From Pseudomonas sp. SCA2728.1_7 (GTDB taxonomy: Bacteria; Pseudomonadota; Gammaproteobacteria; Pseudomonadales; Pseudomonadaceae), in the NCBI RefSeq assembly GCF_018138145.1, contig NZ_CP073104.1:3038001-3102000 (forward strand): DNA of 64,000 nucleotides, in the 5' to 3' direction. The notes beneath the pieces were generated by a model. That model worked only from the letters and a program-made list of their open reading frames with translations, was not told the origin of the DNA and ran no database searches. Of the stretch, positions 23,073-54,379 are shown piece by piece; within the stretch, counting starts at the first letter, position 1; each line of letters begins with the position of its first letter. Both the position numbers and the translations under genes were made by a program.

Positions 23073-23164
23073 GTGTGGGAGCGAGCCTGCTCGCGAATAC
23101 GGACTGACCTTCAACATTGATGTCGACTGAGACACCGCTTTCGCGAGCAGGCTCGCTCTCACAG
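23073..23164. repeat. REPIN, near-identical to that at 25653
   Basis: TGTGGGAGCGAGCCTGCTCG at the left is matched inversely by CGAGCAGGCTCGCTCTCACA at the right. The about 90-bp unit, including its unpaired centre, differs from the one at 25653-25743 at only five positions by eye. Confidence 0.9.
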
Positions 23165-25630: not shown

Positions 25631-25652
25631 TACCTCTATCCACACAAAATCC

Positions 25653-25743
25653 CTGTGGGAGCGAGCCTGCTCGCGAATACGGACTGACATTCAACATTGA
25701 TGTCGACGGATACACCGCATTCGCGAGCAGGCTCGCTCCCACA
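25653..25743. repeat. REPIN, near-identical to that at 23073
   Basis: Same layout and nearly the same sequence as the element at 23073-23164, in the same orientation 2.6 kb away. The two copies flank folM-folE-folX-DUF1244-hopJ. Confidence 0.9.
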
Positions 25744-25775
25744 TTTGATGTGTGATGGCTGTGAATAACGGGCAC

Positions 25776-25820: not shown

Positions 25821-26930
<1,110 letters not shown>

Positions 26931-27018
26931 TTAAGGAAATACGGTTTAACAATCCAGCTCATAGGTGGTCTCTATGCCGTCACACTGACGAGAAGGACGT
27001 CGTTATATCTGAATGGCC

Positions 27019-27357
27019 CTAACAGTTAGTAATGATCAAGCTATTGATTTTTAAGGTTTTTATCCCACTAACATGTTTTATGTTTTTATCGCAATTGCGG
27101 GCAAAAACCAGGCAACTAGGTTCTTGAATGGTGCACCTCATCAGAACGCTACGCTGCAAGCAGCAATCAAGATTGCTCTCATTCCCAACGACCCCGCCAT
27201 CCAGTTCCGCTACCAGGTAGAGGTACATCGGGAGCGTTGCGGCTATACGCTCCACCATATCGTCGACAGTCGGAGGCGTCAGTACAAACGAGATGACCGT
27301 GTCCAGAACCATTGACGCATATATAGCCTGGATGTCAGAGGCGTTAGTGCCGAACAA
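27019..27357 (-). pseudogene. Decayed GNAT acetyltransferase (phosphinothricin-acetyltransferase-like)
   Basis: Only the first about 55 residues still look like the family: ASDIQAIYASMVLDTVISFV, then TVDDMVERIAATLP and YLVAELDGGVVG, which matches the start of PAT-type N-acetyltransferases (IYAP.VLDT.ISFE..PP). After VVG the sequence becomes unrelated, and the acetyl-CoA loop (Q/RxxGxG/A) is absent. It is broken by frameshift or deletion. From 27358 to about 27585 I see no gene. Confidence 0.55.
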
Positions 27358-27587
27358 AATATTCTGACATCAACGCACACCCACCAAGTGTGCGGATGGA
27401 TCACAGCGACAACCCCTCAGTTATCTGAAGAAGCATATCCTCTACCAGGCGCATACCGGGGGAATGTAGAGAGAATGGCGTTTGGGGTTTCACCCGAAAA
27501 TCGTGATTTAGGAGTGGAAAGCCAATTTCTGGCCTTTCCTGCGTCGCCGAAGATCACCTCTGCCATGGCATTAGTTTGCGTGAAGCG

Positions 27588-28470
27588 AAACAACCGATCG
27601 CTTTCAGCTGCATTCAGAGCTGTTCCGGCGCACGCTGCAAGCAGCCGCAGCCCAACCGTCCGAAGCGATTTTAGCTGAGCGCGATCGGCTCAGACGCCCG
27701 GAAGCCCCCATCGAGAACGATGATCGAATTTCACCACTGATACAGAACGTCAACGCTGAGTTAGCGAGATGCATACCGAACGCGCCACATGTTCAACTTC
27801 GGGTGACGAGCACTGATAGCCGATCGCTTCTCGACTCTGTCGCTGCACATTTCGCTGTCGTCGGAGGACTGGGCGTACCCCCAGCCAGACAAGGCAGCGG
27901 TTTGGTGTCTCTGCAAGGGTTGTTACTGCTTCTGGAACTAGGTCGAGGACGTGCAGCTGAAGGTGAAGGATTTCTAATGGCCTTGGAGGAGCCTGAGCTT
28001 CATCTGCCCCCAGCAGTTCAGCAGCAGCTGGTACAACGAGTACAAGCACTTTCGACCCAAACCTTCATTACTACGCATTCCCATTGATCGCTGCGGTATC
28101 AGATCCAACCTCTGTATTGATTCTGCGAAATGTCGACGGTCATCTCTCGGCCCTTCCTTTTTTATCAGAGCCGTTGCTACCAAATGCTCAGAATTGGAAG
28201 AGGAAATTTTTTCAGCAAAGTCGCGTAGATGTCCTGTCGGCTTTAATGCACCCGTGTGTATTGGTACCTGAAGGTCGTGCAGATTTCCTATTACTGAAAA
28301 CGGTGCTACGACCTTTGATGTTGACCGAGGGTTGGTCCACGAGCATGCCATCTATGTTTGGACTGGAGGTCGGCGTCGTACCCACTGAGGATGCCAAAGT
28401 GGTCGAGACGTTCCAGTTACTGTCGGCCACTCATAACAAGGTCTGCTGCCTGGTGGACGGCGACAGAGAC
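27588..28470 (+). pseudogene. OLD-family ATPase/TOPRIM nuclease remnant
   Basis: The C-terminal part of an OLD-type protein is readable in two frames. Frame one contains LLELGRGRAAEGEGFLMALE and [20 protein letters not shown] (ABC-signature-like and Walker B) and ends at THSH-stop. Frame two continues [16 protein letters not shown], then the TOPRIM-like [17 protein letters not shown] and [10 protein letters not shown]. Restoring one base near 28082 (THSP-LIAAV) joins them. The N-terminal P-loop half is missing and the 3' end runs into IS66 sequence. OLD proteins often take part in phage defence; this copy is dead. Confidence 0.65.
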
Positions 28471-28800
28471 GGTACGTCGAGGGTCGAGGAAGGCAATCTG
28501 CCGATCGACAACAATGCCGCCGAATGTGTGATCCGCCCCTTCGTGATCGGAAGAAAGAACTGGTTGTTCAGCGTTACGCTCAAAGGCGCGAAGGCTAGCG
28601 CTCAACGTCACAGCCTGGTCGAGACCGCCAAAGCCAACGGCCAAGAACCTTATGCGTGGCTGCGCCACGCACTTTAGCGCCTACCAATGGCGGCTTTAGT
28701 CAACAATTATGAAGCCCTGCTGCCATGTAACTGCCCACCCGCATCGCCTTAACGAGCGGGCTACTCACACTGAAGTCGGTGGGGTTTGTGGAGCGCTTAC
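28471..28800 (+). mobile_element. 3' end of an IS66-family element (tnpC fragment and right inverted repeat)
   Basis: The C-terminus of an IS66 TnpC transposase is recognisable: [50 protein letters not shown]. An in-frame TAG follows HAL, and then the usual ending continues (RLP..., YEALLPCNCPP) to a TAA at about 28750. GGGTTTGTGGAGCGCTTAC ends at 28800, which fits an IS66 terminus (complement GTAAGCG). The left part, including tnpA and tnpB, is absent. It is fused in frame to the OLD remnant. Confidence 0.75.
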
Positions 28801-28890
28801 TCAAAACCCAAGGCGGGAGTCGTATGCGGTAATTCCGCACGTACGGATCTGTGCGGGGGGTTGCAGGTGACTGCCATTCCTACCGCGATC
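28801..28890 (+). mobile_element. Group II intron 3' remnant (domains V-VI)
   Basis: GAGTCGTATGCGG, a TAAT loop and TCCGCACGTACGGATC fold into a hairpin like group II intron domain V, followed by CTGTGCGGGGGG and a second hairpin (GGTTGCAGG...CCTACCGC) resembling domain VI. The intron-encoded reverse transcriptase is absent. From 28891 to 29014 there is no recognisable gene. Confidence 0.5.
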
Positions 28891-29014
28891 AGTTGATCTC
28901 GCTTCCTTCGGTTATGAAACGCGGATCCATGAAAACTGGGCACAGCGTATTGAGTGAGAGCACATTTTCCCAGCCTGGTAGTTTGATCATCAGCGGCAAG
29001 GCTGGAAAAACGGG

Positions 29015-30364
29015 TTAAGAAACTTCCTCCTCGAAAAAGAAGGCAGCCTCCCCAAAAGCCGGTTTTAGTTGATCGAACCACGTAGCATCGGGATCAAATC
29101 GTGCGAAAAATGGTCTTTGCACCCAATCCGGGTTTCGTGCTTGGATAAAGCGTAAAACAAACACCTTTTCTCCTCTAATTTCAGCTACACCGCAGACTTC
29201 AACTTTCCCCGGATCTGCGCTCATCGAAGGTCCTCTGGCGGTCCTAGCAATACCTGAGACTTGTTTGACAGCGTCTCGGTAAATTTCCCAGGAACGTATA
29301 AGAGGTACTTCAAAATACCGACGAGCCCCGGTATCACGTTCGATAAACATATAGTAAGGAATAATACCTAGTTCAACTTGCGTCTGCCAGAGTCGCGCCC
29401 AGACATCAGCAGAGTCATTGATATGAGCCAGCAACGGGCCCTGACTACGTATTTGAGCACCTGTTTTTCGAACACGACGAATAGCCTCTCGAGCAATTGC
29501 AGGCTCAAGTTCCGCCCAATGATTATAATGAGCCATTAATGCTAAGTGTTTCCCATGCATGCTAATCTTCCTAAATAGATCAAGAAGTTCACCTGCGTCG
29601 CTATCAGTCACAAACCGCTGAGGCCAGAAAGAAAGCGCTTTCGTACCAATTCGGATAGTGTGGATGTGCTCGAACTCAGGAGTCAAAAGAGGTTCTAGAT
29701 AAGCACGTAGATTGCTTGTCTTCATAACCAGCGGATCTCCACCAGTAATTAAAACATCAGTCACTTGAGGGTTGGCCCGCAGGTAATCCAACAGCTGGGT
29801 GTTTTCCTTAGCCGCAATTTTGAGCGATTGGTCTCCAGTGAACTGGGCCCAACGGAAACAAAAAGTACAGTAGCTATGGCAAATCTGACCAGCGCTTGGG
29901 AAAAAAAGCACAGTCTCACGATATTTGTGCTGGACACCAGTTACCGTCACGCCAGACAGTGAAGGGATGTTACGCTCAAGCTGTCCCGCTGGATGAGGGT
30001 TCAGTCTAGCTCTAACCTGTTTTATCGCAACCTCACACGTTGAACGGTCGGAATTCCTTAAAAGTAAAGATGACACTAGATCAAAAGATTCTTTATCCAG
30101 CATATCCTTCTGGGGGAAGGTAAGTTGGTATATAGGGTCGTTGGGAATATTGTCCCAGTCGATCAAATTCTTTATAACATATTCATTGACCCGAAATGGC
30201 AAGACGCTTGCCACAACCTTCATCTCCCAAATAGTCTGGCTGTCTAATTTAGCAAGCTGAGAAATGTGGTCAATTTGTTTCAAGGTATAAACCTTGAAAC
30301 GTTCAACCTCTGATTTGTTTGTGAAGTCGTCAACACTCACCGCTAGATTTTCTATAGAATGCAT
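29015..30364 (-). CDS. KamA-like radical SAM aminomutase, divergent substrate pocket
   Basis: A 449-residue PLP/radical SAM protein of the lysine 2,3-aminomutase superfamily. The cluster motif CHSYCTFC supplies C162, C166 and C169; ITGGDPLVM is the SAM-binding GGDP; RIGTKALSFWPQR is the barrel segment; ADPGK offers K387 as PLP lysine. In clostridial lysine 2,3-aminomutase two Asp residues (D293, D330) hold the substrate amine; the D293 position here is R343 (PYYMFIER). Glutamate 2,3-aminomutase has Lys there, so an acidic or neutral substrate is more likely than lysine. It is the last gene of the cluster, 225 nt after the aminotransferase. Confidence 0.75.
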   Translation of the reverse strand: MHSIENLAVSVDDFTNKSEVERFKVYTLKQIDHISQLAKLDSQTIWEMKVVASVLPFRVNEYVIKNLIDWDNIPNDPIYQLTFPQKDMLDKESFDLVSSLLLRNSDRSTCEVAIKQVRARLNPHPAGQLERNIPSLSGVTVTGVQHKYRETVLFFPSAGQICHSYCTFCFRWAQFTGDQSLKIAAKENTQLLDYLRANPQVTDVLITGGDPLVMKTSNLRAYLEPLLTPEFEHIHTIRIGTKALSFWPQRFVTDSDAGELLDLFRKISMHGKHLALMAHYNHWAELEPAIAREAIRRVRKTGAQIRSQGPLLAHINDSADVWARLWQTQVELGIIPYYMFIERDTGARRYFEVPLIRSWEIYRDAVKQVSGIARTARGPSMSADPGKVEVCGVAEIRGEKVFVLRFIQARNPDWVQRPFFARFDPDATWFDQLKPAFGEAAFFFEEEVS

Positions 30365-30510
30365 AATTAGTAGCCAATAAGATTCTTTAATGAAATATAG
30401 GAAATGATAAAATATCGAACTGTCTTGACCTAAAATTAATGCGTGACCACATATAATATCTGATGACGCAATGGGATCTTAGGCATATAAACTTAATAAA
30501 ACCTCAACAA

Positions 30511-30528
30511 GGTTAGCGTGGGCTAACC
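30511..30528. other. Inverted repeat in the gap between aminotransferase and KamA-like gene
   Basis: GGTTAGC and GCTAACC form a 7-bp stem with a 4-base loop in the 225-nt AT-rich gap (30365-30589). There is no immediate T tract, so it is a weak attenuator or an operator rather than a clear terminator. No gene is visible in the gap. Confidence 0.35.
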
Positions 30529-30589
30529 AAGAAAGCGCAACCTCCAATTGAAAAATTTTTCCACACTAGTAACACTTACCGCATAAAAA

Positions 30590-31717
30590 TCAGCGACGGT
30601 GGACAAAATCTACAATTCTCCCACAAGCCTCTTTAATTTCAGCTTCATTAACGGAAGCAATTGATATTCGGATATGGTCCTTCATACCGTAAGAAGAGCC
30701 CGGCGTGGTAGAAACAGATTTTACGTTGAGGAGATCGTCTACAAATTGGGCGTCCGAATCCCAAGTAGCACCCAATACGCGGGAAATATTAGGAAATAGG
30801 AAAAATCCACCCTGCGGCATTACAATATCAAACGTAGTGCTTAACAACTGATGGCAGTAATAGGCTCGGCGTTGCAACTCATCAACACGCGTTTTAAGAA
30901 TATTTTTAGGCAAAGCTGTTGCTGCCAGGGCACCGTGCTGAGCAAATGTACAAGCATTATCCGTCATGACGCCCTGAAGCGTGGAGCAGCGATTGATAAT
31001 ATTTCTATCCGCGAACATATAGCCTATTCTAAAACCAGACATGGAGAATAGTTTTGAAAACGTACGTGTAACCACCAGCAGGCTAGTATCCACCATAAGA
31101 TCCAGAGGACTAACATGTTCACTGCTACCAAAAACGATGCCTTCGTAGGCTTCGTCGGAAATTAGTAAAAATCCAAACTCTTGAGATAAGAGCACCAACT
31201 CTAGAATTTCTTGTCGACTTAGAACCGAGCCAGTGGGGTTGTGCGGCGAGTTAATGATCAACGCCCTAGTTTTGCTAGTGACCAACTTACGAATTTCAGC
31301 TATGTCGATACGCTTAGTGCCCATTTCATAATCGACGGCAATGCCATCGTTAAGCTCTATGTAAGATATATAAGCGGGCCAGCATGGGTTCGGAACAAGA
31401 ACCTCGTCACCTTTGGATAATATGCATTTCATCAACATAAACAAAGCCTGACTCGAGCCATTAGAGACTAAAATCTCGGCTGGGTCGTACAACTTACTAT
31501 GCTTGTGAAAACACCCCTCGATCAAAGATTTTTTTAAAGACTCTATGCCGGTAAGATCACAATAGCCAGTATATCCATTCGTTAAGGCGTTAATCGTCGC
31601 GCGAGAAATCTCCTGCGGAACTTCAAGATTGAACTCACCATCGTGCATCTGAATTAAGTCGCCCATTTGAGGACTTTTACTTAAGACCTGCGACAACTTC
31701 TGACTCGGGTTTAACAT
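30590..31717 (-). CDS. Class I/II PLP-dependent aminotransferase
   Basis: A 375-residue fold type I aminotransferase. Visible features are GYTGYCDLTGIESLKKSL at the N-terminus, LVSNGSSQALFMLMKCIL, the INSPHNPTGSVLS motif with the PLP-contacting Asn, the SDEAYEGI Asp, and the PLP lysine in TRTFSKLFSMSGFRIGYMF (K222). The start at 31717 is preferred because GGTGA lies 7 nt upstream; a TTG at 31729 is weaker. It begins 18 nt after the hydroxylase gene. In the cluster it could make or remove an alpha-amino group on a precursor; the substrate is unknown. Confidence 0.85.
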   Translation of the reverse strand: MLNPSQKLSQVLSKSPQMGDLIQMHDGEFNLEVPQEISRATINALTNGYTGYCDLTGIESLKKSLIEGCFHKHSKLYDPAEILVSNGSSQALFMLMKCILSKGDEVLVPNPCWPAYISYIELNDGIAVDYEMGTKRIDIAEIRKLVTSKTRALIINSPHNPTGSVLSRQEILELVLLSQEFGFLLISDEAYEGIVFGSSEHVSPLDLMVDTSLLVVTRTFSKLFSMSGFRIGYMFADRNIINRCSTLQGVMTDNACTFAQHGALAATALPKNILKTRVDELQRRAYYCHQLLSTTFDIVMPQGGFFLFPNISRVLGATWDSDAQFVDDLLNVKSVSTTPGSSYGMKDHIRISIASVNEAEIKEACGRIVDFVHRR

Positions 31718-31735
31718 AATTCTCACCAACTGTAA

Positions 31736-32953
31736 TTATTTTAAATGTCGCAGCATCTGCCGCGAGTAGACTTCAGTGAAAAAAGCTTTTGCCGACGGGC
31801 CCAGATCCTGGGGCCAGAAATCAAACATTAAATTTACACGAGTACATTTACTATAGTTCCAAGACTCATGTTGAAAAGTCGTATCAATGATTACTATGTC
31901 ACCGGTTCTCCAACTAACGATCTCTTCCCCGACTCTCAGCCCAGACAAACCATCGTCAGAACAAAGTATAGGTAGATGTAACGTCAGCATAGGATAAACA
32001 TAATCTAGATGCGGTTCGATATGACCGCCCGGCTCTAGGCTTGAAAGCACAACCTCTCTGATAGTCGCACCTGGCACAATATCCTCAACAAAGCGAATAG
32101 TATTTGGTACAAGGTCAGCGTATACAGCAACTTTTTGACCACCTTTATAAAGTGGAATTGATTTCCACAAAGGGTCGCCATGAAAGGGATATTTTTCTTG
32201 CGTGTTCTTATATTTATCATAGAGCTGGATTAATTCCTGCGTCATCTCGGCGAGTAGAGTATCAACGCCTGAGAGAAAGCTGAAATCGTCTTTAGACCAA
32301 AGAGGCTTTCTTGGTCCAAACAACGACTTAAACCCATTGATATTTATATTCGTAGCATAAGGTACAGGCGTAACATGCTTAGATAGGCCGCTGGATAAGC
32401 GGCTAGGTAATGATGATTTACCTTCATAACATTCCAACTCTATTAGATCAAGGACACACTCACGTGTTTTATCATCGATATCGCCAAGTTCATCTAATAC
32501 ATCGCGCCACAATGTGACGACTGGCTCCCGCCACTTTAGAGCAGACCTGCAGGCAATCACTACAGTCGCATATAGCCGGATTATGAGGTAAATGAGTAAT
32601 AACTGGCTCGCTCCTAAAAGTCCAAATCCTAATGATTCGGCTCTGTAATATAGACCCGCCACCAAAGTAAAAATAGAGAGAGGAACGAGCCAACACAAGT
32701 AGCTACTATAGCGTCGCACGGCAGAGTAAGGTACGACGATATTAAGCATATCGAATTGGGAACGAATAATCGGCCAGGAGCTGACGGAATATAGAAGAAA
32801 AAATAGCAAACAGCAGTAGGAAACAGCATATATCGACAAGAGATCGATCGGAACAGCCAGAACAATAAATACATATAACAATAAGCAAGCTATCACGGAT
32901 ATACTGTGTTTCAGTATATAATTTATGCCTCGAATGCCGTATAGATTTCTCAT
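31736..32953 (-). CDS. Membrane-anchored AspH/LpxO-type 2OG-Fe(II) hydroxylase
   Basis: A 405-residue protein. The N-terminal about 150 residues contain four hydrophobic helices (ISVIACLLLYVFIVLAVPID and others). The C-terminal part is an aspartyl/asparaginyl beta-hydroxylase domain with GGHIEPHLDYVYP and FQHESWNYSKCTRVNLMF. The iron site reads H-x-D...H, as in LpxO and unlike animal AspH, where the Asp is missing. The ATG at 32953 overlaps the stop of the MATE gene (ATGA), supporting this start. The exporter next to a membrane-bound hydroxylase suggests late hydroxylation at the membrane, though this is inference. Confidence 0.8.
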   Translation of the reverse strand: MRNLYGIRGINYILKHSISVIACLLLYVFIVLAVPIDLLSIYAVSYCCLLFFLLYSVSSWPIIRSQFDMLNIVVPYSAVRRYSSYLCWLVPLSIFTLVAGLYYRAESLGFGLLGASQLLLIYLIIRLYATVVIACRSALKWREPVVTLWRDVLDELGDIDDKTRECVLDLIELECYEGKSSLPSRLSSGLSKHVTPVPYATNININGFKSLFGPRKPLWSKDDFSFLSGVDTLLAEMTQELIQLYDKYKNTQEKYPFHGDPLWKSIPLYKGGQKVAVYADLVPNTIRFVEDIVPGATIREVVLSSLEPGGHIEPHLDYVYPMLTLHLPILCSDDGLSGLRVGEEIVSWRTGDIVIIDTTFQHESWNYSKCTRVNLMFDFWPQDLGPSAKAFFTEVYSRQMLRHLK

Positions 32954-34350
32954 GTCGCAACCTGCGCCGAAGGCTCGTATCGAATCCATCTAAATAAAAG
33001 TAGAGAGAACAGCGCTAAAAGTCCGAGCGCTAAGCCACACCATATACCAGCTGCTCCTAGGTCAGTATAAAATGCAAGTAATAGAGCTAGCGGCAGCCCC
33101 ACTAGCCAAAAACAAATAATTGAGAGCAGCATCGGAATAACAGTCTTTTTCAGCCCCCTGAATATACCGAGCAGGACCATTTGACTACCATCAAAGAAAT
33201 GGAAGATTCCCAAGATGCTGACAAAGAGACTAGATAGCATGATGAGTTCGTCATTTACACCGTCATCGCGAGCAACAAATAACTGAACGATATCATTAGA
33301 AAAAATAATCAGAATAGAAGATGTCACAGTGAGCACTATCCAGCTGAGCCATAGGGCACTCCATCCTGCGTCACTAGTCCGCCGCGAATACAAACCTAAA
33401 GGTGAGCAGAGGCTTATTCTTGTGGTAGATGCTTGAGAGATACCATTAGGTATTGTAAATACAACTTGAAGAACTTGCATTGCGATACCATGAGCAGCCA
33501 ATGCAACGACTCCAAATTTACCCACTACAATTGTAAGGATGAAGAAAAAAAGCGTGTCGTTTGCTTGAGTTAAAGAGACCGGAATACCGTTTTTTAGAAT
33601 AGGCAGCATCAACCGCCATCTCACTACCATCAATTTTATGCAGTGCCGACGCACCCTAAACTGCGGATTCATTAAACCGAATGTGATCAGCAACATACAA
33701 AGCAGGACGTTTGTTAGAGTCGTGGCTATACCTGCACCGAACAAACCCAAGGGGGGTATCCACAAAAACCCAAATATTAGAATCAGGTGCGCAACGAAGT
33801 TAAAGATCGACGCTATAATAATTGCGATAACTGCATATCGCGCGGACCCCATTATAGATAAAACATTTCTGAGGTGTACAAATAAAATCGCTGGTCCAAT
33901 GCTCCACATCAGGCTGCTCATATATCTCTGGGCCTCGAGAGACAAAAGAATATCCTGGCCGAAAAAAACTAATATCTCTTTCGTAAAACAGAGTATTGAT
34001 AAGCATATTAAAAAAGCGGCTACTATGAGCTGAACGCAACTGGTTGATACAGATATATATTGTTCTTCTTTTCCCTTAGAGCCCAACGCATCAGTTATAA
34101 ATGGGATTGTAGAGACTAGCAATCCGGAAAATAATAAAAACAGGAGATAGTAGAGGCCCTGTGCCAAAGTCGACGCAGCTAACGCCTCTGTACTAATCCA
34201 TCCAGCCATTATTACGTCCGTAGTAGCAATAATCACATGCGCGATATTGCCAAATACAAAGGCAAGCGAAAGCCGGAAACTCTCGCGCATCTCGGATGTA
34301 TATCTACGGGAAAGCCTCACGGCACGATTATATATCAGCGATGATGTCAA
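32950..34350 (-). CDS. MATE-family efflux transporter
   Basis: A 466-residue inner-membrane protein with about 12 hydrophobic segments. MATE features include ATTDVIMAGWISTEALAAS in the first bundle, GIATTLTNVLLCM, and VGKFGVVALAAHGIAMQVLQ in the second. The likely start is a TTG at 34350 because GGGAG lies 7 nt upstream; the first ATG (34290) has a poor site and would cut into the first helix. It overlaps the oxygenase gene by 23 nt and the hydroxylase gene by 4 nt. It is the cluster's probable exporter and self-protection. Confidence 0.88.
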   Translation of the reverse strand: MTSSLIYNRAVRLSRRYTSEMRESFRLSLAFVFGNIAHVIIATTDVIMAGWISTEALAASTLAQGLYYLLFLLFSGLLVSTIPFITDALGSKGKEEQYISVSTSCVQLIVAAFLICLSILCFTKEILVFFGQDILLSLEAQRYMSSLMWSIGPAILFVHLRNVLSIMGSARYAVIAIIIASIFNFVAHLILIFGFLWIPPLGLFGAGIATTLTNVLLCMLLITFGLMNPQFRVRRHCIKLMVVRWRLMLPILKNGIPVSLTQANDTLFFFILTIVVGKFGVVALAAHGIAMQVLQVVFTIPNGISQASTTRISLCSPLGLYSRRTSDAGWSALWLSWIVLTVTSSILIIFSNDIVQLFVARDDGVNDELIMLSSLFVSILGIFHFFDGSQMVLLGIFRGLKKTVIPMLLSIICFWLVGLPLALLLAFYTDLGAAGIWCGLALGLLALFSLLLFRWIRYEPSAQVAT

Positions 34351-35167
34351 GACTGTACTCCCGATCTAGGTGCTTAGATATATCCTTGGAAATCTGTACT
34401 CTTTTTAGCCATCGATCCGTTCCATCGTACCTTGGTGTAAATTCCGGCCTGCCGTGAGCGCACTTATAGTTGTTGATAAATAAAACCTGCGCTTCATTCA
34501 TTGACAAGTTAAAGGTGGCTGACTCAACCAGCGTGATAAAATCCTTAAACACCAGTTCTTCACAATGAGACATTTTGCTGTAGTCAACGTAGACCGGATC
34601 ATAAATGAAGCTGTAACCTTCGGCTGGAGACTCTTGCAATACCGCCGTCTCTAGAGCTTTCGGCTTATATTCGATCGTAGAAGGTCGGTCGGAAAGAATT
34701 GTATAACGATTCTCAGTTAACCGATGTTTGAGTGTTGCATCAATAGTTGAGAAGTCTGGGCAAGACAGCAAGTTAGGGATTTTATCGTCGTTTCTTACGC
34801 ATAAAAACCCTAGCACATCTGCCCTATAGGCTAGAGCGGGGTCTTCCGTATGAAGTTCTAAATGCACAGAACCACTCCCCAACTGCTTATTTCTATCTTT
34901 GAATATGGGGAATATTTCTTGAATAAGCTTACCGTTCTGCAGGTCGCTATAACCGAAGACATCACCAACATGCCTTGAAAGCTGAAGAAACAAATCATCG
35001 TAGTTTGAATGACAGTCGTCTTTCCAGTGTTTCGGCGTTGGACGCTGTTCATCGGCTTTAGGGAGGTCTAATACTACTATGTCAGACGAAAAACTAAAGT
35101 CCTCTTTAAATTGAGCTACAACAGCTTCTGGTTTTAACATCGAGTAGTCTAATTTAGTAAGTATCAT
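34328..35167 (-). CDS. Clavaminate-synthase-like 2OG-Fe(II) oxygenase
   Basis: A 279-residue protein of the clavaminate synthase/TauD group, which hydroxylates free or carrier-bound amino acids (VioC on arginine, AsnO on asparagine, lysine hydroxylases). The iron triad is visible as H106-T-E108 (VHLELHTEDPALAYRADVLG) and H238 (YKCAHGRPEFTPRYDGTDRW), with R252 placed to bind 2-oxoglutarate at the same spacing as in VioC. The H-x-E form, rather than H-x-D, is typical of this subgroup. It lies 77 nt after the second aminomutase gene. Confidence 0.82.
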   Translation of the reverse strand: MILTKLDYSMLKPEAVVAQFKEDFSFSSDIVVLDLPKADEQRPTPKHWKDDCHSNYDDLFLQLSRHVGDVFGYSDLQNGKLIQEIFPIFKDRNKQLGSGSVHLELHTEDPALAYRADVLGFLCVRNDDKIPNLLSCPDFSTIDATLKHRLTENRYTILSDRPSTIEYKPKALETAVLQESPAEGYSFIYDPVYVDYSKMSHCEELVFKDFITLVESATFNLSMNEAQVLFINNYKCAHGRPEFTPRYDGTDRWLKRVQISKDISKHLDREYSLDIIADI

Positions 35168-35244
35168 ATCAACACCGAAGAAATTGTAAGTTAGTTAGCT
35201 TCAAAGCCACGAGGTGTAGTGAACCACTCACTCGTCAATTTAGC

Positions 35245-36357
35245 TCAAGAGATCTCAAGCGTTTTATGATCATAACCGAGCACAAAATTCTTTGAGCCTA
35301 GTTTATAAAAGTACTGGTTATTCAGAGGAATCTTCCCAAGTTTGGTGGTGTAAACATACTGTGGGACACTGAAACCAGTTTCATAACCGTGCAACTGCTC
35401 CATAATCTCAAGGCCTTTTTCAATCGACGTCCTAAAGTGCGACACGCCTTGAACGTTATCCGCGTGATAAAGGTAATAAGGTCTTACCCTGCCTTTCACT
35501 AACATCCGGTTCAACGTTCTAAGAGTTTCAACATCGTCATTAACTCCACGCAACAGCACTGTCTGATTTTGCACCGGTATTCCGTGGGAAAGGAGTTTAT
35601 CTACCGCGCTTAAGGCCTCAGGAGTCACTTCTACGGGATGATTGAAATGAGTGCTAAACCAGATCGATTTGAATTCAGACAACATCTTACAAAAATCATC
35701 TGTTATCCGCTGCGGGAGAAAAACCGGATACCGTGAGCCAATTCGTACAAAATCGACGTGGGGGATTGCATTGAGCCTAGATATAATACTATGCAGAAGC
35801 TTATCTGAAAGAATTAGCGGGTCGCCTCCGGTGAGTAATACGTCGCTGATATTTTTGTTATTCGCGATGTACTCTATGTCTTGATCATATGAAGCGGGAA
35901 GTTCTTTATTGTAATAAGTACCTGACTTATCAGTTGTATGGAATTTTCTCGTACAATGCCTACAGTAAACTGGACAAGTATCCGAAACTAGGAATATGAC
36001 TCGGTTTGGATATTTATGTACGACGCGCCTGGTTTTCATGTAAACCATATCACCAACCGGATCTACTTCCTCCTGCTGATTGCTCTCCTCAACTTCTTTT
36101 GGGTGGGGTATGCTTTGCAGCCTAATCGGACAATTCTCATTGGTCTCATCCATCAGTGATGCATAATAGGGAGTAATCATCCACTTATACTGGCTCTCTG
36201 TTTGCTCAATCCCCCTTAACTCCGTTTCACTGAGATTCACCCAGGTTTCCAGCTGAGACTTGGTGCGGATGGCATTCTTCATCTGGAACTTGTAGTCACC
36301 CCATTGGTCGGAAGAAAGTAAATCCTGTTTACTCAAAGTGTCCTTTGCAATAATCAT
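35245..36357 (-). CDS. Lysine-2,3-aminomutase-like radical SAM enzyme
   Basis: A 370-residue enzyme close to classical KamA. It has C128-P-V-Y-C132-R-H-C135, LTGGDPLIL, FVRIGSRYPVFLPQRIT, GVNDDVETLRTLNRML, VRPYYLYHAD, GVSHFRTSIEKGLEIMEQLH and a PLP lysine in TKLGKIP (about K342). The first substrate Asp of KamA (D293) is kept (HADN, about D300), but the segment holding D330 (VVDAPGGGGK) is shortened to YTTKLGK without an Asp. The substrate may therefore be a modified or non-lysine amino acid. The start at 36357 has AAGGA inside the end of the preceding gene, 4 nt upstream. The product would be a beta-amino acid. Confidence 0.88.
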   Translation of the reverse strand: MIIAKDTLSKQDLLSSDQWGDYKFQMKNAIRTKSQLETWVNLSETELRGIEQTESQYKWMITPYYASLMDETNENCPIRLQSIPHPKEVEESNQQEEVDPVGDMVYMKTRRVVHKYPNRVIFLVSDTCPVYCRHCTRKFHTTDKSGTYYNKELPASYDQDIEYIANNKNISDVLLTGGDPLILSDKLLHSIISRLNAIPHVDFVRIGSRYPVFLPQRITDDFCKMLSEFKSIWFSTHFNHPVEVTPEALSAVDKLLSHGIPVQNQTVLLRGVNDDVETLRTLNRMLVKGRVRPYYLYHADNVQGVSHFRTSIEKGLEIMEQLHGYETGFSVPQYVYTTKLGKIPLNNQYFYKLGSKNFVLGYDHKTLEIS

Positions 36358-36361
36358 TTTA

Positions 36362-37924
36362 TTATCCTTGGATGGCTGGGTGACTGATAAGATTTTTGTC
36401 AATATCTGCAGTTTTTGAGGTCGTCCATCCGCCGCTATGATAGTCGAGACCTTGTATCTTATATCGACTAGTTGGAAGCCCAAAGCCGAACTCTTGGAAT
36501 ATCAAAGCAGCATTATTAACTGCATCATCTTCTAGCGGAAATGGCTTGTTATCCAGGCTCTCATTCATGGATTGAAGTACGTCAAATATGAGTCCGCCTA
36601 TACCTGACCCTTCGGACATCCTCATTTTTGGTCGCCGAGTGATATAATCTGGTAATTCGAGAGAGAAGGCGTCTCTAAGCAAAGCTTTCGTAAAATCATC
36701 TCTTACATGAAATTCCATTGGTAACGAGATTATAAAATCGAAAAGATCTTTATCAAGAAACGGCACACGGCATTCCACCGTATTGAACATGCTCATTCTA
36801 TCCACACGTTGTAGATCAGTTCGATACAAGTTCCTAACCTTATGTAATTGAAGTGCACGACGGTCAATGACCCCTTGAAAGAAGTCATAACCAGCAAATA
36901 GCTCGTCACTTCCATCTCCAGATAAAGCTATACGTATGCCGTCTTCTTTCATCCGGGAGAAAGCAGCATTTATAGTTAATGCGTCAGTTATATCCACAGG
37001 CTCAAACTGTTCAGACACGTATATGTGTGTTCTAATAGATTGCATGAGGTCTGCGCGATCAACATCACAAAAAACTATTTTTATACCGAGTTCATTGCAT
37101 AGTCTCTGAGCGAATACTACGTCAGATGAGCCAGGCACGCCTACCGTGTACGCGGTGACGTTATTATGATATAGGTTAGCAAGATAAAGAATAATTGCGC
37201 TGTCTAGCCCGCCAGAGAAAACTACTCCAACTGGAAGATCCGTATTAACTTGGCGTTTTACCGAAAGGTGCAGTAACTCGTTGCATTTAGCTACCGCGGA
37301 CTTGCAATCTAATTTCCGCTCTATGCTTTCGCTAATTAAATAATATGCTTTTTGTCGACCATCCTCCCAATAATATCCGGGGAGAATTTCTTGTGTCTTG
37401 TTGGTCAACCCAATCAGTGCTTTCAGTTCCGATGCGAAATAGAGGACGGATCCCACTTGAGCCCAGTATAGAGGCTTTACGCCCAACCGATCCCTCGCAG
37501 CAAAAACAGTGTTGTCTTCCGGTGAGTAGATAATAAAGGCGAATATTCCATTGAACCGGTTCAGACAAGACCTTCCCCAGTGAATATAGGCTCTAAGAAC
37601 TAGCTCAGTATCTGAGCAGCCTAAAAACTCCACTCCTTGCGATAATAAAATCAATCGCAACTCATCCAGATTATAAATCTCGCCATTAAATATAATTGCG
37701 TGGCCAGAAATTTTATCTATAAATGGTTGATTATTTTCTTCTCTCTCCACGATAGGCAAGCGATTGGTACCAATAGCAGCATTAGAAAATATAAAACGCT
37801 CTCCAAATCTTTCAGCCGCGCCTCTATGAGAGATTCTCCCCAACATTTCTAATAAAGTAGCCTCAATGTCGCGCTGTCCATCAGAACTAGTAGACGTTTC
37901 AAATACTGCAGCTATCCCACACAT
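36362..37924 (-). CDS. Glutamine-dependent asparagine-synthetase-like amidotransferase
   Basis: A 520-residue protein with both AsnB domains. The N-terminal glutaminase starts with Cys2 (MCGIAAVFE) and keeps RLPIVE, FNGEIYN and CSDTELVLRAY. The synthetase domain has the PP-loop VVFSGGLDSAI (residues 237-242) and ALSGDGSDELFAGYDFF. Because Cys2 is present it can use glutamine ammonia to form an amide, unlike beta-lactam synthetases (BLS, CarA, TblS), which have lost it. Its ATG abuts the stop of the ATP-grasp gene (TAGATG) with GGGGGAG upstream. It is shorter than most AsnB proteins (about 550-640). Amidation of a pathway intermediate is the likely role. Confidence 0.88.
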   Translation of the reverse strand: MCGIAAVFETSTSSDGQRDIEATLLEMLGRISHRGAAERFGERFIFSNAAIGTNRLPIVEREENNQPFIDKISGHAIIFNGEIYNLDELRLILLSQGVEFLGCSDTELVLRAYIHWGRSCLNRFNGIFAFIIYSPEDNTVFAARDRLGVKPLYWAQVGSVLYFASELKALIGLTNKTQEILPGYYWEDGRQKAYYLISESIERKLDCKSAVAKCNELLHLSVKRQVNTDLPVGVVFSGGLDSAIILYLANLYHNNVTAYTVGVPGSSDVVFAQRLCNELGIKIVFCDVDRADLMQSIRTHIYVSEQFEPVDITDALTINAAFSRMKEDGIRIALSGDGSDELFAGYDFFQGVIDRRALQLHKVRNLYRTDLQRVDRMSMFNTVECRVPFLDKDLFDFIISLPMEFHVRDDFTKALLRDAFSLELPDYITRRPKMRMSEGSGIGGLIFDVLQSMNESLDNKPFPLEDDAVNNAALIFQEFGFGLPTSRYKIQGLDYHSGGWTTSKTADIDKNLISHPAIQG

Positions 37925-39316
37925 CTAGCACTCCCCCATCAATTTGTCTTCGCTATATTCAGACACTTCGATTTCAATATTTCTCTCATACTCTTTATGG
38001 AAGTTAAGTATCTCGTCTATAGACGTTGCCCTCACCCACATCTTAGCGATATAAGCTTCTTCGTTCTCTACATCGAAGAATCCATCTTTGTGCCCGTTAG
38101 TTGCAGGCAGTACCTGCGATAAAATCTCACATGCAGAATCAATTTCTGGGAGTTTTATAGCTTTGATGTAGCCTGAGCGATTTGGATAGAATAGGAGCAT
38201 TGCGTATACGGCGTCCTCAGGCAAGATCGGAAGGTCATCCGCCAAATAATGCCCTATGGTCACTGGCTTATTTGTTAGGTAATTTACGTTTAAAGAATAC
38301 GCATCACATGAGCACAAATCCTTAAGGGCTTCGTCCACGAAGAACCCGCCCAGCCTAGGATTTACCTCAATTACCTGGGGGCCGTCTGGGGATAACTTGA
38401 ACTCAACGTGTAAAAATCCGTTCTTTATCTTCAGCGCTTTTATAGAATCGCTAATAGCTGATACTATTATCGAAATCTGGTCGTTGGAAAAGCTTTGAGG
38501 CGGTGTGACTATGACCTTTTCTAATACCGTATTAGAAGTATTGCTTGTTATCATCTTTTCGAAGATTAGCATCGGGTGAATGCTACCGTTGATAACTAAG
38601 CACTCTAAAGAACCTTCCGGCCCCTCGATAAATTCTTCAATTAAAACGGAAACACCCGGAGTATATAGAACTGGGCCTTCCTCTGAAGAGCTAAGCCATT
38701 TTTTAGTTCCTGAGAAAGAACACGCTCCAGGTACGTCAGGAAATCTTTGTATGAAGTGATTGTATGCCAGTTCAAGACCCTTCCGGTCATCACATATCGA
38801 GACAAACGCCGAGCCGCCTCCATATACTGGCTTCATCACTACGGGAAATATAAGATCATCAATAGTTTCGAAATCCCCGTTGAAGAGCCGGAATTTTACT
38901 GGCTTAACACCTTTTATATTGCTAAGTTGTGAACGCATCAGGTGCTTATTATTGCAGTTCTCTAGCGGCTCGGCGCTGTAATATTTGAGCCCGCATTGAA
39001 TAGCGACCTCTTCAACTACATGGTTGGCGTCCCCACGCGGGGTGACATGCGCTGGGTAACAAAACAGTCCCTTCACGTTGTATATGCGACTTAAACTTTC
39101 TATTGCGCAGAGTACTTCGCTAGTTTCAATACTATCAACCAAGAAAACTTCGTCACTTTCATCGCTGGACTCCCTGATATTTTTGCTATCTTTTGCGATG
39201 ATTGTTATGCATCTGACGCCCTCTTTTGCCGCGGCTTGAAAGTGAAGTTTTCTATATAAATATAATGAGGTTGATAGATAATCGTTGTCGATAAAAATTA
39301 GTATTTCGGGCTTCAT
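37925..39316 (-). CDS. ATP-grasp carboxylate-amine ligase
   Basis: A 463-residue ATP-grasp protein (from MKPEILIFIDNDYLSTSLY). Features: pre-ATP-grasp domain with LFCYPAHVTPRGDANHVVEE, the lid segment FPVVMKPVYGGGSAFVSI, VLIEEFIEGPEGSLECLVIN, and the metal-binding FLHVEFKLSPDGPQVIEVNP with RLGGFF. Such stand-alone ligases join amino acids to other amines (BacD/TabS type) or activate carboxylates. GGAA precedes the chosen start at 39316; earlier in-frame Met codons at 39328 and 39385 are less likely. It is the first gene of the cluster and may form the peptide bond. Confidence 0.85.
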   Translation of the reverse strand: MKPEILIFIDNDYLSTSLYLYRKLHFQAAAKEGVRCITIIAKDSKNIRESSDESDEVFLVDSIETSEVLCAIESLSRIYNVKGLFCYPAHVTPRGDANHVVEEVAIQCGLKYYSAEPLENCNNKHLMRSQLSNIKGVKPVKFRLFNGDFETIDDLIFPVVMKPVYGGGSAFVSICDDRKGLELAYNHFIQRFPDVPGACSFSGTKKWLSSSEEGPVLYTPGVSVLIEEFIEGPEGSLECLVINGSIHPMLIFEKMITSNTSNTVLEKVIVTPPQSFSNDQISIIVSAISDSIKALKIKNGFLHVEFKLSPDGPQVIEVNPRLGGFFVDEALKDLCSCDAYSLNVNYLTNKPVTIGHYLADDLPILPEDAVYAMLLFYPNRSGYIKAIKLPEIDSACEILSQVLPATNGHKDGFFDVENEEAYIAKMWVRATSIDEILNFHKEYERNIEIEVSEYSEDKLMGEC

Positions 39317-39418
39317 GTGTAGTTCCATGATAATTGGCGTCATTGTGTAATAAGATAGTGAGCTAACGTATGCACCGTATGTCACCCGGGTATCGGTATA
39401 GATCTTTTTGGAGTTGCA

Positions 39419-39562
39419 CTAGAAGGTTAATCTCAGCGAGATAAAAATATCTCTACTGGTCCGATCTACTGAAGTTAAATGAGCGTCTATGGGCCGCTGA
39501 TCTCGCTCAGAAAAAGCATGACCCAGGACGTTCAGCTTGCGCTCACTCGGGTAGTTCAGCAT
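39419..39562 (-). CDS. Possible 47-residue peptide upstream of the cluster
   Basis: A short frame (MLNYPSERKLNVLG...FISLRLTF) with GGAA upstream of its ATG lies in the 356-bp gap before the ATP-grasp gene. I do not recognise it. It could be a leader peptide, the remnant of an older gene, or chance. The rest of the gap holds an inverted repeat at 39600-39625 and presumably the cluster promoter. Confidence 0.2.
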   Translation of the reverse strand: MLNYPSERKLNVLGHAFSERDQRPIDAHLTSVDRTSRDIFISLRLTF

Positions 39563-39599
39563 GACAATCTATTCCCTTAGATTCTTCGCTATGCGCGTT

Positions 39600-39625
39600 G
39601 ATTCAACTATTGTGTGAGTTGAATC
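39600..39625. promoter_or_regulatory. Perfect 9-bp inverted repeat upstream of the biosynthetic cluster
   Basis: GATTCAACT (39600-39608) and AGTTGAATC (39617-39625) are perfect inverted copies separated by 8 bp. They lie between the PRTase-like gene and the ATP-grasp gene, and could be an operator for the cluster or a terminator for the gene upstream. Confidence 0.4.
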
Positions 39626-39672
39626 TCTAGCCCTTCTTGGCCATGGTAGTCATGAAACATTTGCATAATTAT

Positions 39673-40431
39673 TTAGTGCATTAGCTGCGGCTTTATTTTC
39701 GGCTCGCATATTTCCCAGATACCGGGGTGGTCTTTTAGCTCGCTGAAGAAGTTATGTCGGTGATCGAAGACTTCCACCGGAAGGACGATCAGCCAAGGAC
39801 ACGCGTCTTTGGGTGCTTTCAGACCCCCGGCGTGAGCGATCAGAGGACAGTAAACGATGTGGACGCGCTCTTTTTCAGGCAGGGCATGTTCCTTTGCGAG
39901 TTTGTCGAACTGAGTAACCGTCCCCAGCATGTCATCGACAGAAACGAGGCGCCGGACAACTCTTGAAAGTTCACTAAGCGCATCGGACCGACAGGTCAAG
40001 AATCTGGGTATTGCGGCGTACCGTTTATACTGGCGAATGATTACACCGCCGCTTTTGCCCGCGTCGAACGCGCGACTGCCGTCCACACCAACAATCCGAA
40101 TCGGAAAGTCGGTGTCGTCGAGTTGCAGCACTTCGAGGAAGTTCTCAATGTCGAGCTGAGGAAAATGGTCAATTTTCCGCAGGTACGTCGGCAATAGGCA
40201 GTTGAGCAGATGGTCGATAGAGCTGTCGATTATCGCCTGCGAGCGATAGATCAGGCGGTTCAGCATGCATGCCGCCAAGTAGTGCTCTTCATAAGTACGA
40301 AAACTTGCGATCCAGCGGTCGAGTCTAGTTTTGTCGATGCCGGTGATGGCTCTTTTCTCGAGAAGGACGCAAAAACGGTCCAGGACATCCTCAAGCAGGC
40401 CATGGTTTACTTCTGGGACATGAAAATCCAT
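39673..40431 (-). CDS. Phosphoribosyltransferase-like (PRTase-CE type) protein
   Basis: A 252-residue protein. An N-terminal helical part (RLDRWIASFRTYEEHYLAAC) precedes a phosphoribosyltransferase-like core with GKSGGVIIRQYKRYAAIP and the degenerate PRPP loop LVSVDDMLGTVTQF, then VHIVYCPLIAHAGGLKAP. This order resembles PRTase-CE proteins, which have been predicted to act in bacterial conflict systems. The start at 40431 has AGGA upstream. No partner gene is intact. It may belong to defence cargo of the island rather than to the biosynthetic cluster. Confidence 0.45.
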   Translation of the reverse strand: MDFHVPEVNHGLLEDVLDRFCVLLEKRAITGIDKTRLDRWIASFRTYEEHYLAACMLNRLIYRSQAIIDSSIDHLLNCLLPTYLRKIDHFPQLDIENFLEVLQLDDTDFPIRIVGVDGSRAFDAGKSGGVIIRQYKRYAAIPRFLTCRSDALSELSRVVRRLVSVDDMLGTVTQFDKLAKEHALPEKERVHIVYCPLIAHAGGLKAPKDACPWLIVLPVEVFDHRHNFFSELKDHPGIWEICEPKIKPQLMH

Positions 40432-40716
40432 AGACAATCCTGTGCTATGTAATCATTGTTTTTTCGCGGCCTTTTCCCTGGCCGGTGCACTCAGACTGTG
40501 CAATAGAATCAGACTACATGCGAAACACAAAGACACGCAATACCCCATTTACATTTTGAAACAAGGCTCCACCGTGCTAGTGGTACGGTGTATCTCTGGC
40601 CTCCCTGACCGTTCCAGCTTTATGAGATTGAGCATGAAAGGCAAGCGTAAGTCCAAATGTAGGAACTGAAAATAACTGCCACATTTCGGTAATAACCACC
40701 CACCTCTCTAATGATT

Positions 40717-41904
<1,188 letters not shown>

Positions 41905-41915
41905 AGTACGCAAAT

Positions 41916-42936
41916 TTATTCAGCGAGAAACATCATGTCTATTTCGTCTTCATGAGCAAGAACTGACTGAGCCTCAAGCTGATTCATTACATGTAGATAA
42001 ATCATTATTGTTTGTACATCCGAATGCCCAATTCTATCTCGGACATACAACAACGGATCTCCCCCAAAGCTCTTACTTTTCCGCAAAGCACATAGAGTGT
42101 AAGTCCCATAGGGGTGACGAAGCATGTGAGCACGAACGTAAAATCCACATCTTTTTCATATGCTTTCATAACATCGACAACGGAGTCTTTTGAATATTTC
42201 CGCCCCTCCTTGGTAAGCAGCAGCGCACTTACATTTCCATCACCGTGCGATTTTCGTATCTCACGCTGATGGAGCGAATAAGACCACATCGCCTCCATAA
42301 GCGACCACGGGACATCTATAGTTCCAGGGCGGCCAAACTTTATGTACATATCATTGGGCTCAAGAGCCACGCTAATCATCTGCCCTTGGCGAAGACCTTT
42401 TTTCAACCGAGGATTGAACACATACTTCACTGGAAAGCTCCGCGCCTCGCAAGAGCGAAGCCCTGTGCGCAGCATGAGATGAAACAAAATTTTATGGCTC
42501 GGATCAGTGTTTAAAGCGAGGCAAACCTTTGCCTGACTCTTAGTTAGGGATTTTGTTAAACGCGTACGCTCCCGGACCATCACTGAAGGCTTCGTGCTCT
42601 CCGGCGCTGAACAAGTGGTGTGACTTAGCAAACCCAAATTTTTTGCAACTCTCACCCTTTTCTCACTAAAGGGCAGTAGCGATACAAGACCACGTAATTT
42701 GGCCCAGCGATAAAAGCGAACGATCAGTGCTAGCCGTTTATTGACCGTACTGGAGTCGAGTCCCAATTCCCCACTCGACCAGTCTCTATACCTCGCCAAC
42801 ACACTTAATCCGGGGGCGACACTCTGTTCATCCCAAGCCAAATCGTTGGCCTCTAGAAATGCAAAGTAGTCAAACAACCGGCGCCCATAGGCCTCCCAGG
42901 TTAAGGGACTCAGCGCTTCACCTGATTCGCCAAGTA
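41916..42936 (-). pseudogene. Tyrosine recombinase (integrase), frameshifted
   Basis: A phage-type integrase broken in at least two places. The main frame (42877-42005) has the core-binding region (VNKRLALIVRFYRWAKLRGL) and box I Arg (LMLRTGLRSCEARSF). Homology extends upstream to about 42936 without a start (GESGEALSPLTWEAYGRRLF). Near 42130 the frame shifts, and box II continues in another frame: RAHMLRHPYGTYTL, then RIGHSDVQTIMIYLH with the His and nucleophilic Tyr. It probably mobilised the island and is now dead. The first 20-30 N-terminal residues are not readable. Confidence 0.75.
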
Positions 42937-43006
42937 CTTACCACAAAAAAGTTTGAACTGGCTCAACTGGCCAACCATCTAACCCAATCAACAACGGGAA
43001 CCCCTC

Positions 43007-43185
43007 AAAGGATCGACCCGCTAACGAAAGATCCTTTGTTGCGAACACCAGCCTCATAGAGCAGACCTACATACCAACTCAGAATTTATCTCGGGACCTA
43101 ACCATGACCATTTATGATCCCCCCACAAAGAGCCCTGCCGACTGTAAACGATCCGCTAACGAATGCCCCCCTCGGATCTTTGTTA
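43007..43185. repeat. Imperfect direct repeats and hairpin next to the recombinase gene
   Basis: CCGCTAACGAA occurs at 43018-43028 and 43153-43163, each followed by GATC(C)TTTGTT (43030 and 43175). The first copy also sits inside an inverted repeat, AAAGGATC...GATCCTTT (43007-43037). Their position between integrase and cysZ suggests remnants of an attachment region. The stretch 42937-43271 otherwise holds no gene. Confidence 0.35.
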
Positions 43186-43271
43186 CGGTGAATGTCGATC
43201 GCTCTACCGCGCTTTCGCCGCCGTTGCAAAGTCGGTAAGGTCGGCGCGTTTTCCCTTGCTCGGAGCACCTT

Positions 43272-51110: not shown

Positions 51111-51202
51111 TTGTAGGAGTGAGCCTGCTCGCGATAGCGGTGGATCAGCTTGCAAAGATGTTGAATGAGATAACGCTTTCGCGAGCAGGCTCGCTCCCAC
51201 AG
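51111..51202. repeat. REPIN
   Basis: TGTAGGAGTGAGCCTGCTCG at the left and CGAGCAGGCTCGCTCCCACA at the right, inverted, with a spacer of about 45 bp. Confidence 0.85.
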
Positions 51203-51224
51203 TTTTGATCGCCGTATGCCCGAA

Positions 51225-54267: not shown

Positions 54268-54365
54268 CCCCCTGTAGGAGTGAGCCTGCTCGCGATAGCG
54301 TTGTCACATTCGACATAGCGGTGACTGACACTCCGCTATCGCGAGCAGGCTCACTCCTACAGGGG
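54268..54365. repeat. REPIN
   Basis: CCTGTAGGAGTGAGCCTGCT and its inverse AGCAGGCTCACTCCTACAGG flank a spacer containing a second small inverted match around GCGATAGCG / CGCTATCGC. Confidence 0.88.
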
Positions 54366-54379
54366 ATTTGCGGTGGTTT

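Follow-up and report, generated by a model that had tools for sequence, protein, structure and literature searches.

The oxygenases VioC, NapI, OrfP and GntD of the viomycin, naphthyridinomycin, streptothricin and guanitoxin pathways form an arginine-hydroxylase group of Fe(II)/2-oxoglutarate enzymes. Excerpts of PMC10884159 name a guanidinium-binding Asp for this group and describe members that hydroxylate C3 or C4 or that desaturate. For GntC, the pyridoxal phosphate (PLP) enzyme of the guanitoxin pathway, excerpts of PMC10367076 give the active site of the crystal structure as E9, S25, N52, T84, K219 and H250. Here we describe an eight-gene biosynthetic cluster of Pseudomonas sp. SCA2728.1_7, found at 29015-39316 in a 64,000-nucleotide stretch (the window) of NZ_CP073104.1, a single 6.78-Mb chromosome. 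We assign a probability of about 0.6 to the reading that the eight genes make up one pathway to an exported metabolite, starting from arginine and including beta-arginine. The best reading of the product is an exported, cationic pseudopeptide or amide that would contain beta-arginine, with the cluster as an orphan.

Calling of open reading frames (ORFs), followed by Pfam and NCBIfam scans that took in nine proteins of the surrounding island, found all eight genes on the minus strand, in the families named by an initial annotation made from the DNA alone. Its picture of a compact operon without nonribosomal peptide synthetase (NRPS) genes, equipped with an exporter, two amide-forming enzymes and two oxygenases, is supported, and its remark that no acyl-chain or amidine-forming gene is present agrees with the scans of the eight. 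After correction of start sites, the first seven genes are tightly packed, with at most 77 bases between neighbors; the eighth, which encodes a second KamA-like protein (KamA2), is set off from the PLP enzyme gene by 225 bases. The start of the aminomutase gene is placed at ATG 36357 rather than at the listed TTG 36483 because the first 42 codons of the longer frame are out of frame in four of five orthologous loci (L002, L003, L004 and L006; they are in frame in L001). This choice leaves four bases after the stop of the AsnB-type gene. The most likely starts are ATG 31717 for the PLP enzyme and ATG 32953 for the AspH-type protein, the latter overlapping the stop of the MATE gene, and the ATP-grasp start at 39316 agrees with the conserved block.

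The first KamA-like protein (35245-36357, minus strand, 370 residues), of the radical S-adenosylmethionine (SAM) and PLP-dependent type, scores 641.8 bits to TIGR04468, the model for arginine 2,3-aminomutase, above the curated cut-off of 600. The lysine and glutamate models give 383.1 and 384.7 bits, both under their own cut-offs. By comparison with lysine 2,3-aminomutase (LAM, 2A5H), the protein keeps the three Cys residues, the carboxylate Arg, D293 and the PLP Lys, and has Thr at the position of D330. We take D293 and D330 of LAM to be the residues that bind the lysine side chain, and presume the roles of the carboxylate Arg and the PLP Lys likewise. The residue signature was read from an alignment of 16 rows, with KamA2 set aside and loci L002, L006, L011, L013 and L016 outside it. 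Thr at the D330 position, together with a loop shorter by two residues, is found in nine of nine rows of closer relatives, namely four of the eight Pseudomonas copies, Xenorhabdus, Azospirillum, two blasticidin-S-like clusters (Kitasatospora and Embleya) and Tateyamaria. All seven rows of relatives at 40-45% identity have Asp there. Model score and residue signature support assignment of this protein as an arginine 2,3-aminomutase, predicted to make beta-arginine.

The Fe(II)/2-oxoglutarate oxygenase (34328-35167, minus strand, 279 residues) was called clavaminate-synthase-like by the initial annotation, which holds for the broad fold; among the profiles, GntD (160.1 bits) and VioC (127.1) far outscore clavaminate synthase (57.9). 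Its best relatives in the PDB are NapI, OrfP and VioC. It retains the HTE motif at 106-108 and His238 as metal ligands, Arg252 and Arg256, and with these the Arg for 2-oxoglutarate. Asp195 aligns with the guanidinium-binding Asp245 of NapI, matched by an Asp-x-Ala pattern, and a Ser stands at the position of VioC Asp270 and NapI Ala247. By these sequence comparisons, the enzyme is placed in the arginine-hydroxylase group. The position of hydroxylation cannot be read off, because enzymes of the group act at C3, at C4 or as desaturases.

A tblastn search of 72,556 plasmid records for the PLP enzyme found two at E<=1e-50, the Xenorhabdus bovienii CS03 megaplasmid (NZ_FO818638) and plasmid p5 of Azospirillum argentinense (NZ_CP032326). 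Both carry the arginine aminomutase and the oxygenase alongside, in differing gene orders. In these uncharacterized modules the three genes are adjacent, and their products are 60-61% (aminomutase), 35-36% (PLP enzyme) and 43-44% (oxygenase) identical to the Pseudomonas proteins. Azospirillum also has an AspH-like protein (31-33%) and a MATE protein (35%); it carries the AspH-type gene twice, with a MATE gene after each copy, as well as a gene for threonine aldolase. Unlike the Pseudomonas cluster, the Xenorhabdus module adjoins polyketide synthase (PKS) genes and the Azospirillum module both PKS and NRPS genes. The fetched Xenorhabdus and Azospirillum stretches gave no ATP-grasp or AsnB match at E<=1e-3, and the Xenorhabdus stretch no AspH-like match. 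Since the triad of aminomutase, oxygenase and PLP enzyme stands beside differing genes, it appears to be an arginine-processing module combined with different backbone-building machinery. AspH-like and PLP-like proteins are paired on two metagenomic contigs (20,952 and 6,528 bases), where co-location is deduced from equal contig sizes. In Tateyamaria and the two blasticidin-S-like loci, where the triad is missing, the aminomutase also has an ATP-grasp ligase in its vicinity. The Tateyamaria locus (L005, 5458-16854) encodes an arginine 2,3-aminomutase (619 bits), an ATP-grasp protein with the C-terminal domain of L-amino-acid ligases, a protein resembling serine hydroxymethyltransferase or transaldolase, and a GNAT protein, and may be another NRPS-free beta-arginine locus.

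Two enzymes could form amide bonds. The ATP-grasp ligase (37925-39316, minus strand, 463 residues) scores 62.7 bits to PF13535 (cut-off 27), and its best PDB match is the L-amino acid ligase BL00235 (3vot), followed by BacD. A search of 369 genomes sampled from the class found it at E<=1e-25 in its own genome only. The AsnB-type glutamine amidotransferase (36362-37924, minus strand, 520 residues) scores 349.6 bits to TIGR01536, above the cut-off of 267.1, and matches AsnB in the PDB at 170.8 bits, vs 54.5 for CarA and 52.9 for beta-lactam synthetase. It begins MCGI and so has the N-terminal glutaminase residue Cys2. Because that Cys is kept and the protein is far closer to asparagine than to beta-lactam synthetases, amide formation from glutamine is favored. 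The MATE efflux protein (32950-34350, minus strand), the proposed exporter, is above cut-off for both PF01554 (124.9 bits) and TIGR00797 (181.1 bits).

The AspH/LpxO-type hydroxylase (31736-32953, minus strand, 405 residues) matches PF05118 at 99.6 bits, and its N-terminal part appears hydrophobic by eye. Only 11 proteins, its own included, are related at E<=1e-3 among 5619 candidates. His315, His326, His362 and Arg372 are invariant in six aligned sequences. In NCBIfam it scores highest with OlsC, a lipid hydroxylase (59.7 bits; cut-off 450). The neighboring fold-type I PLP enzyme (30590-31717, minus strand, 375 residues) is predicted to be a transaminase or cyclase. Identification as GntC, for which the profile rank was good, was rejected after an own-genome control, as four other proteins of the same genome outscore its 229 bits (cut-off 415). 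VioD, the capreomycidine synthase, failed likewise (113.7 bits against 390.9, with three other proteins higher).

KamA2 (29015-30364, minus strand, 449 residues) is encoded in all eight copies of the cluster described below. It scores 142.8 bits to TIGR00238 (cut-off 199.2) and 130.6 bits to the lysine 2,3-aminomutase model (cut-off 525.4); six KamA-type models match it, none of them above its cut-off. The two aminomutases claimed by the initial annotation therefore come down to one that passes its model and one that passes none. KamA2 keeps CxxxCxxC, the Arg and the Lys, with Arg standing in for LAM D293 and Ser for D330. Because Arg and Ser replace the two lysine-binding Asp residues, KamA2 is neither a lysine nor, by signature, an arginine aminomutase. 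Its family is large, with at least 7999 relatives (7999 candidates were scored, all at E<=1e-3). Neighbors were surveyed in 11 of 14 loci of the order with a match at E<=1e-100; in one of the loci (L078) the KamA2 frame was lost to a non-overlap rule of the script, and the locus was judged from coordinates. No neighbor family was common to different families of the order in the 11 loci, sharing being within genus only, except for L087 and L088. In these two loci, which belong to one family, the KamA2 relative adjoins and overlaps a predicted ligase, ATP-grasp by eye (L087 7142-9359, L088 7460-9650). An attempt to derive a function from neighbors was given up, as no substrate follows from the 11 loci.

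That the genes should travel together had been set beforehand as a test of the initial annotation, and they do. The same eight genes occur in the same order in eight distinct Pseudomonas assemblies including this one, with mostly different flanks. The other carriers are P. khavaziana SWRI124, QTF5, Leaf48, REP124, ACN8, G204 and G046. A further genome of the genus (G166) is identical to Pseudomonas sp. REP124 over the shared stretch, and loci L091 and L004 come from one genome (14631 shared bases, 100% identical), which is counted once. In six of the seven other carriers, the shared stretch has its start somewhere in 28754-29009 and its end somewhere in 39334-39656; in G204 it continues up to 41564. 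Short repeats elsewhere also match among carriers, besides pieces of a PRTase-CE gene in L001. The genus and class collections, of 398 and 369 genomes, are samples rather than all species. In the genus sample, the AspH-type protein is present at 77% identity or more in four genomes, this one included; another 324 give matches, those listed being partial, with no more than 34% identity.

Cluster genes are under purifying selection. Ratios of nonsynonymous to synonymous substitution rates (dN/dS) against six of the genomes are 0.02-0.20 across all eight genes; against the seventh, a very close genome with few changes, they are 0.04-0.65. The arginine aminomutase has the lowest values, 0.02-0.04 over seven comparisons (0.02-0.03 in six). 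Two copies are damaged. In QTF5 (L002) the PLP gene is frameshifted around 15254-15260, and in G046 (L090, 8720-10108) the ATP-grasp gene has an in-frame stop at codon 82; in both copies, the other seven genes remain open from end to end. The AsnB frames end 14 and 6 codons early in L003 and L004. Values for the broken PLP and ATP-grasp copies refer to the open part only, with coverage of 0.59 and 0.17, and coverage is 0.97 and 0.99 for the AsnB gene of L003 and L004.

We propose that the radical SAM enzyme would convert arginine to beta-arginine, and that the VioC/GntD-group oxygenase, the AspH-type hydroxylase, putatively membrane-anchored, and the PLP enzyme would act on a further unit derived from arginine (or on this same unit). 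The ATP-grasp ligase would then join the units (two amino acids), the AsnB-type amidotransferase would make a further amide, and the MATE protein would export the product. The steps would presumably run in about this order, and the hydroxylation positions, any ring and the place of the amide should be taken as provisional, as should the contribution that KamA2 may make. Such a route would be expected to give a small, strongly basic pseudo-di- or tripeptide, or its amide, that is hydroxylated or cyclized and may have biological activity, perhaps as the antimetabolite suggested by the initial annotation. The idea of a hydroxylated beta-amino acid in the initial annotation thus survives, with arginine rather than lysine as the likely precursor. 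That the product belongs to an undescribed NRPS-free family we hold more tentatively, at slightly under even odds. In such a family, beta-arginine and an oxidized, possibly cyclic arginine unit would be linked and amidated by free-standing ATP-grasp and AsnB-type enzymes. The arginine-processing module would be the one found beside PKS or PKS/NRPS genes in other bacteria, with the backbone-building part exchanged, and a second, KamA-type enzyme of new specificity would be included.

Several observations weigh against a dedicated arginine pathway. The oxygenase passes no curated cut-off (418.6 for VioC and 345 for GntD), and it is about 30 N-terminal residues shorter than its Xenorhabdus and Azospirillum relatives. 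The PLP enzyme, judged by its profile matches, is not specifically GntC- or VioD-like. In comparisons with the PDB, its predicted structure (predicted local distance difference test score, pLDDT, 91.2) is nearest to prephenate and aspartate aminotransferases; the best 50 matches listed per comparison do not include GntC, OrfR or VioD, though this does not exclude them. KamA2 is without a conserved neighbor in nine of the 11 loci elsewhere, so that no role here is indicated. Because arginine aminomutases occur without the triad in Kitasatospora, Embleya and Tateyamaria, this enzyme alone does not define the pathway. Apart from the pump, no obvious self-resistance gene is found among the eight, nor a regulator. 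Finally, since one gene is broken in two of the eight copies, the trait is not kept everywhere.

A more specific account would give the cluster a guanitoxin-like front end. The AspH-type protein would correspond to GntB (arginine gamma-hydroxylation), the PLP enzyme to GntC (formation of the enduracididine ring) and the oxygenase to GntD (beta-hydroxylation), and hydroxy-enduracididine would be joined to beta-arginine. In three of three loci the oxygenase scores best in NCBIfam with GntD, 33-37 bits over VioC; GntC ranks first or second for all seven PLP enzymes scanned; and AspH-like and PLP proteins occur together on the Azospirillum plasmid and, as deduced from contig size, on the two metagenomic contigs. 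Excerpts of PMC10367076 and PMC10673588 describe GntB as a transmembrane protein making gamma-hydroxyarginine, so that by analogy the AspH-type protein might take a GntB-like role, a likeness drawn from description, no GntB sequence having been compared. Set against this, no curated Gnt cut-off is reached, GntC specificity failed the own-genome control, the nearest folds of the PLP enzyme are plain aminotransferases, the Xenorhabdus stretch has no AspH-like match, and the remaining guanitoxin pathway is absent from the eight genes. We regard this front end as unlikely, at perhaps one chance in four.

The remaining alternatives fare much worse. In clavam biosynthesis, a beta-lactam synthetase closes the beta-lactam, and the operon does combine an AsnB-like enzyme, an oxygenase of clavaminate type and a source of beta-amino acids, with CarA and beta-lactam synthetase detectable as PDB relatives of the AsnB-type protein. 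Ring closure on an aminomutase-made beta-amino acid, followed by a clavaminate-synthase-like step, is nevertheless very improbable, given the glutaminase Cys2 (to our knowledge, beta-lactam synthetases are without glutaminase function), the threefold higher AsnB score and the placement of the oxygenase with arginine hydroxylases. We give equally little credence to a beta-lysine antibiotic. The initial annotation had pointed to the 5-hydroxy-beta-lysine of sperabillin and negamycin, and a KamA-family aminomutase, hydroxylases and amide-forming enzymes do stand together here; however, both model and residue mark the assigned aminomutase as an arginine enzyme, the oxygenase sits with the arginine hydroxylases, KamA2 has Arg where LAM has what we take to be a lysine-binding Asp, and no acyl-chain or amidine-forming gene accompanies them. 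That likeness is set aside on enzyme types, no reference cluster sequence having been compared. Barely more probable is modification of a macromolecule or lipid by AspH-, LpxO- or OlsC-like hydroxylation, for which the weak OlsC match speaks; the ATP-grasp, AsnB-type and MATE proteins, together with the PKS or PKS/NRPS neighbors of the related modules, better fit an exported small molecule. The arginine-derived, beta-arginine-containing product remains the preferred reading.

The AT-rich island reported by the initial annotation is real. GC content is 42.8% in the eight-gene block vs 58.6% in the window outside 26901-43200. Three relatives without the island join its flanks, with 17 bases between them in L115 and L116 and 69 in L117; the left flank ends at 26965-26983 and the right starts at 43178-43210. 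An insert of about 16.2 kb (about 26984-43177) is therefore present in this genome. No direct repeats of nine bases or more were found at the island ends within 300-base windows. Transposase remnants with IS66 and IS3-type (rve) insertion sequence matches flank the cluster at 28084-28677 and 41393-41896, and an integrase-like ORF called by eye (42005-42877) has no Pfam match. The left flank gene is trxB-like (25821-26819, named by eye). A relative (G011, loci L113 and L114) has a different large insert at this site beside trxB, which suggests an insertion hotspot. Directly upstream of the cluster, a PRTase-CE protein (PF24390, 78.2 bits; 39673-40437) is shared with G204, with fragments in L001. 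On plasmids, near-DNA similarity is confined to 28801-28892, where no more than about 90 bases lying outside the genes match 13 plasmid records; in five of these, the match is covered by a gene annotated as belonging to a group II intron (ltrA), and the stretch is perhaps an intron end. Repeats of about 90 bp, resembling repetitive extragenic palindromic (REP) elements, lie at 23074-23163, 25651-25760, 51112-51205 and 54270-54368, and also around the cluster in some other Pseudomonas.

At about 10.3 kb, on one strand and without NRPS or PKS genes, the cluster lends itself to easy transfer into a laboratory host and to a direct search for its product. Its enzymes include a Pseudomonas arginine 2,3-aminomutase, a KamA2 representative of a large family and an AspH-type protein with few relatives. 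The module common to Pseudomonas, Xenorhabdus and Azospirillum would allow tests of how the same modified amino acids are handed over to different assembly systems.

No characterized cluster with the whole gene set was found in the genome scan, the plasmid searches or the matches listed from open-licence PMC literature, MIBiG lying outside these searches, and the known systems resemble it in part. In blasticidin S (bls) biosynthesis, an arginine 2,3-aminomutase makes a beta-arginine unit; the Pseudomonas aminomutase is 58% identical to the Kitasatospora and Embleya copies and, as in those clusters, has an ATP-grasp ligase two genes away; unlike those clusters, the nine island proteins scanned include no nucleoside genes (cytosylglucuronate synthase, decarboxylase), and Pseudomonas has two oxygenases, AsnB, MATE and KamA2. 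A ligase of the L-amino-acid-ligase type is shared with bacilysin (BacD) and dapdiamide (DdaF), whereas the amino acid units differ and the scores stay far below cut-off (27.2 vs 840 for DdaF, 25.1 vs 850 for BacD). Of guanitoxin gntA-J, the nine scanned proteins give only GntC- and GntD-type matches, both below cut-off. A PLP enzyme together with an Fe(II)/2-oxoglutarate oxygenase from the arginine-hydroxylase group is a feature in common with viomycin (VioC/VioD), streptothricin (OrfP/OrfR), naphthyridinomycin (NapI) and guanitoxin (GntB/C/D); unlike in those pathways, the curated cut-offs are unmet and the partners are ATP-grasp and AsnB-type enzymes, not NRPS or guanitoxin tail enzymes. 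NRPS-free biosynthesis of arginine-derived peptides is itself a known kind of pathway, and the Pseudomonas cluster is a variant within it.

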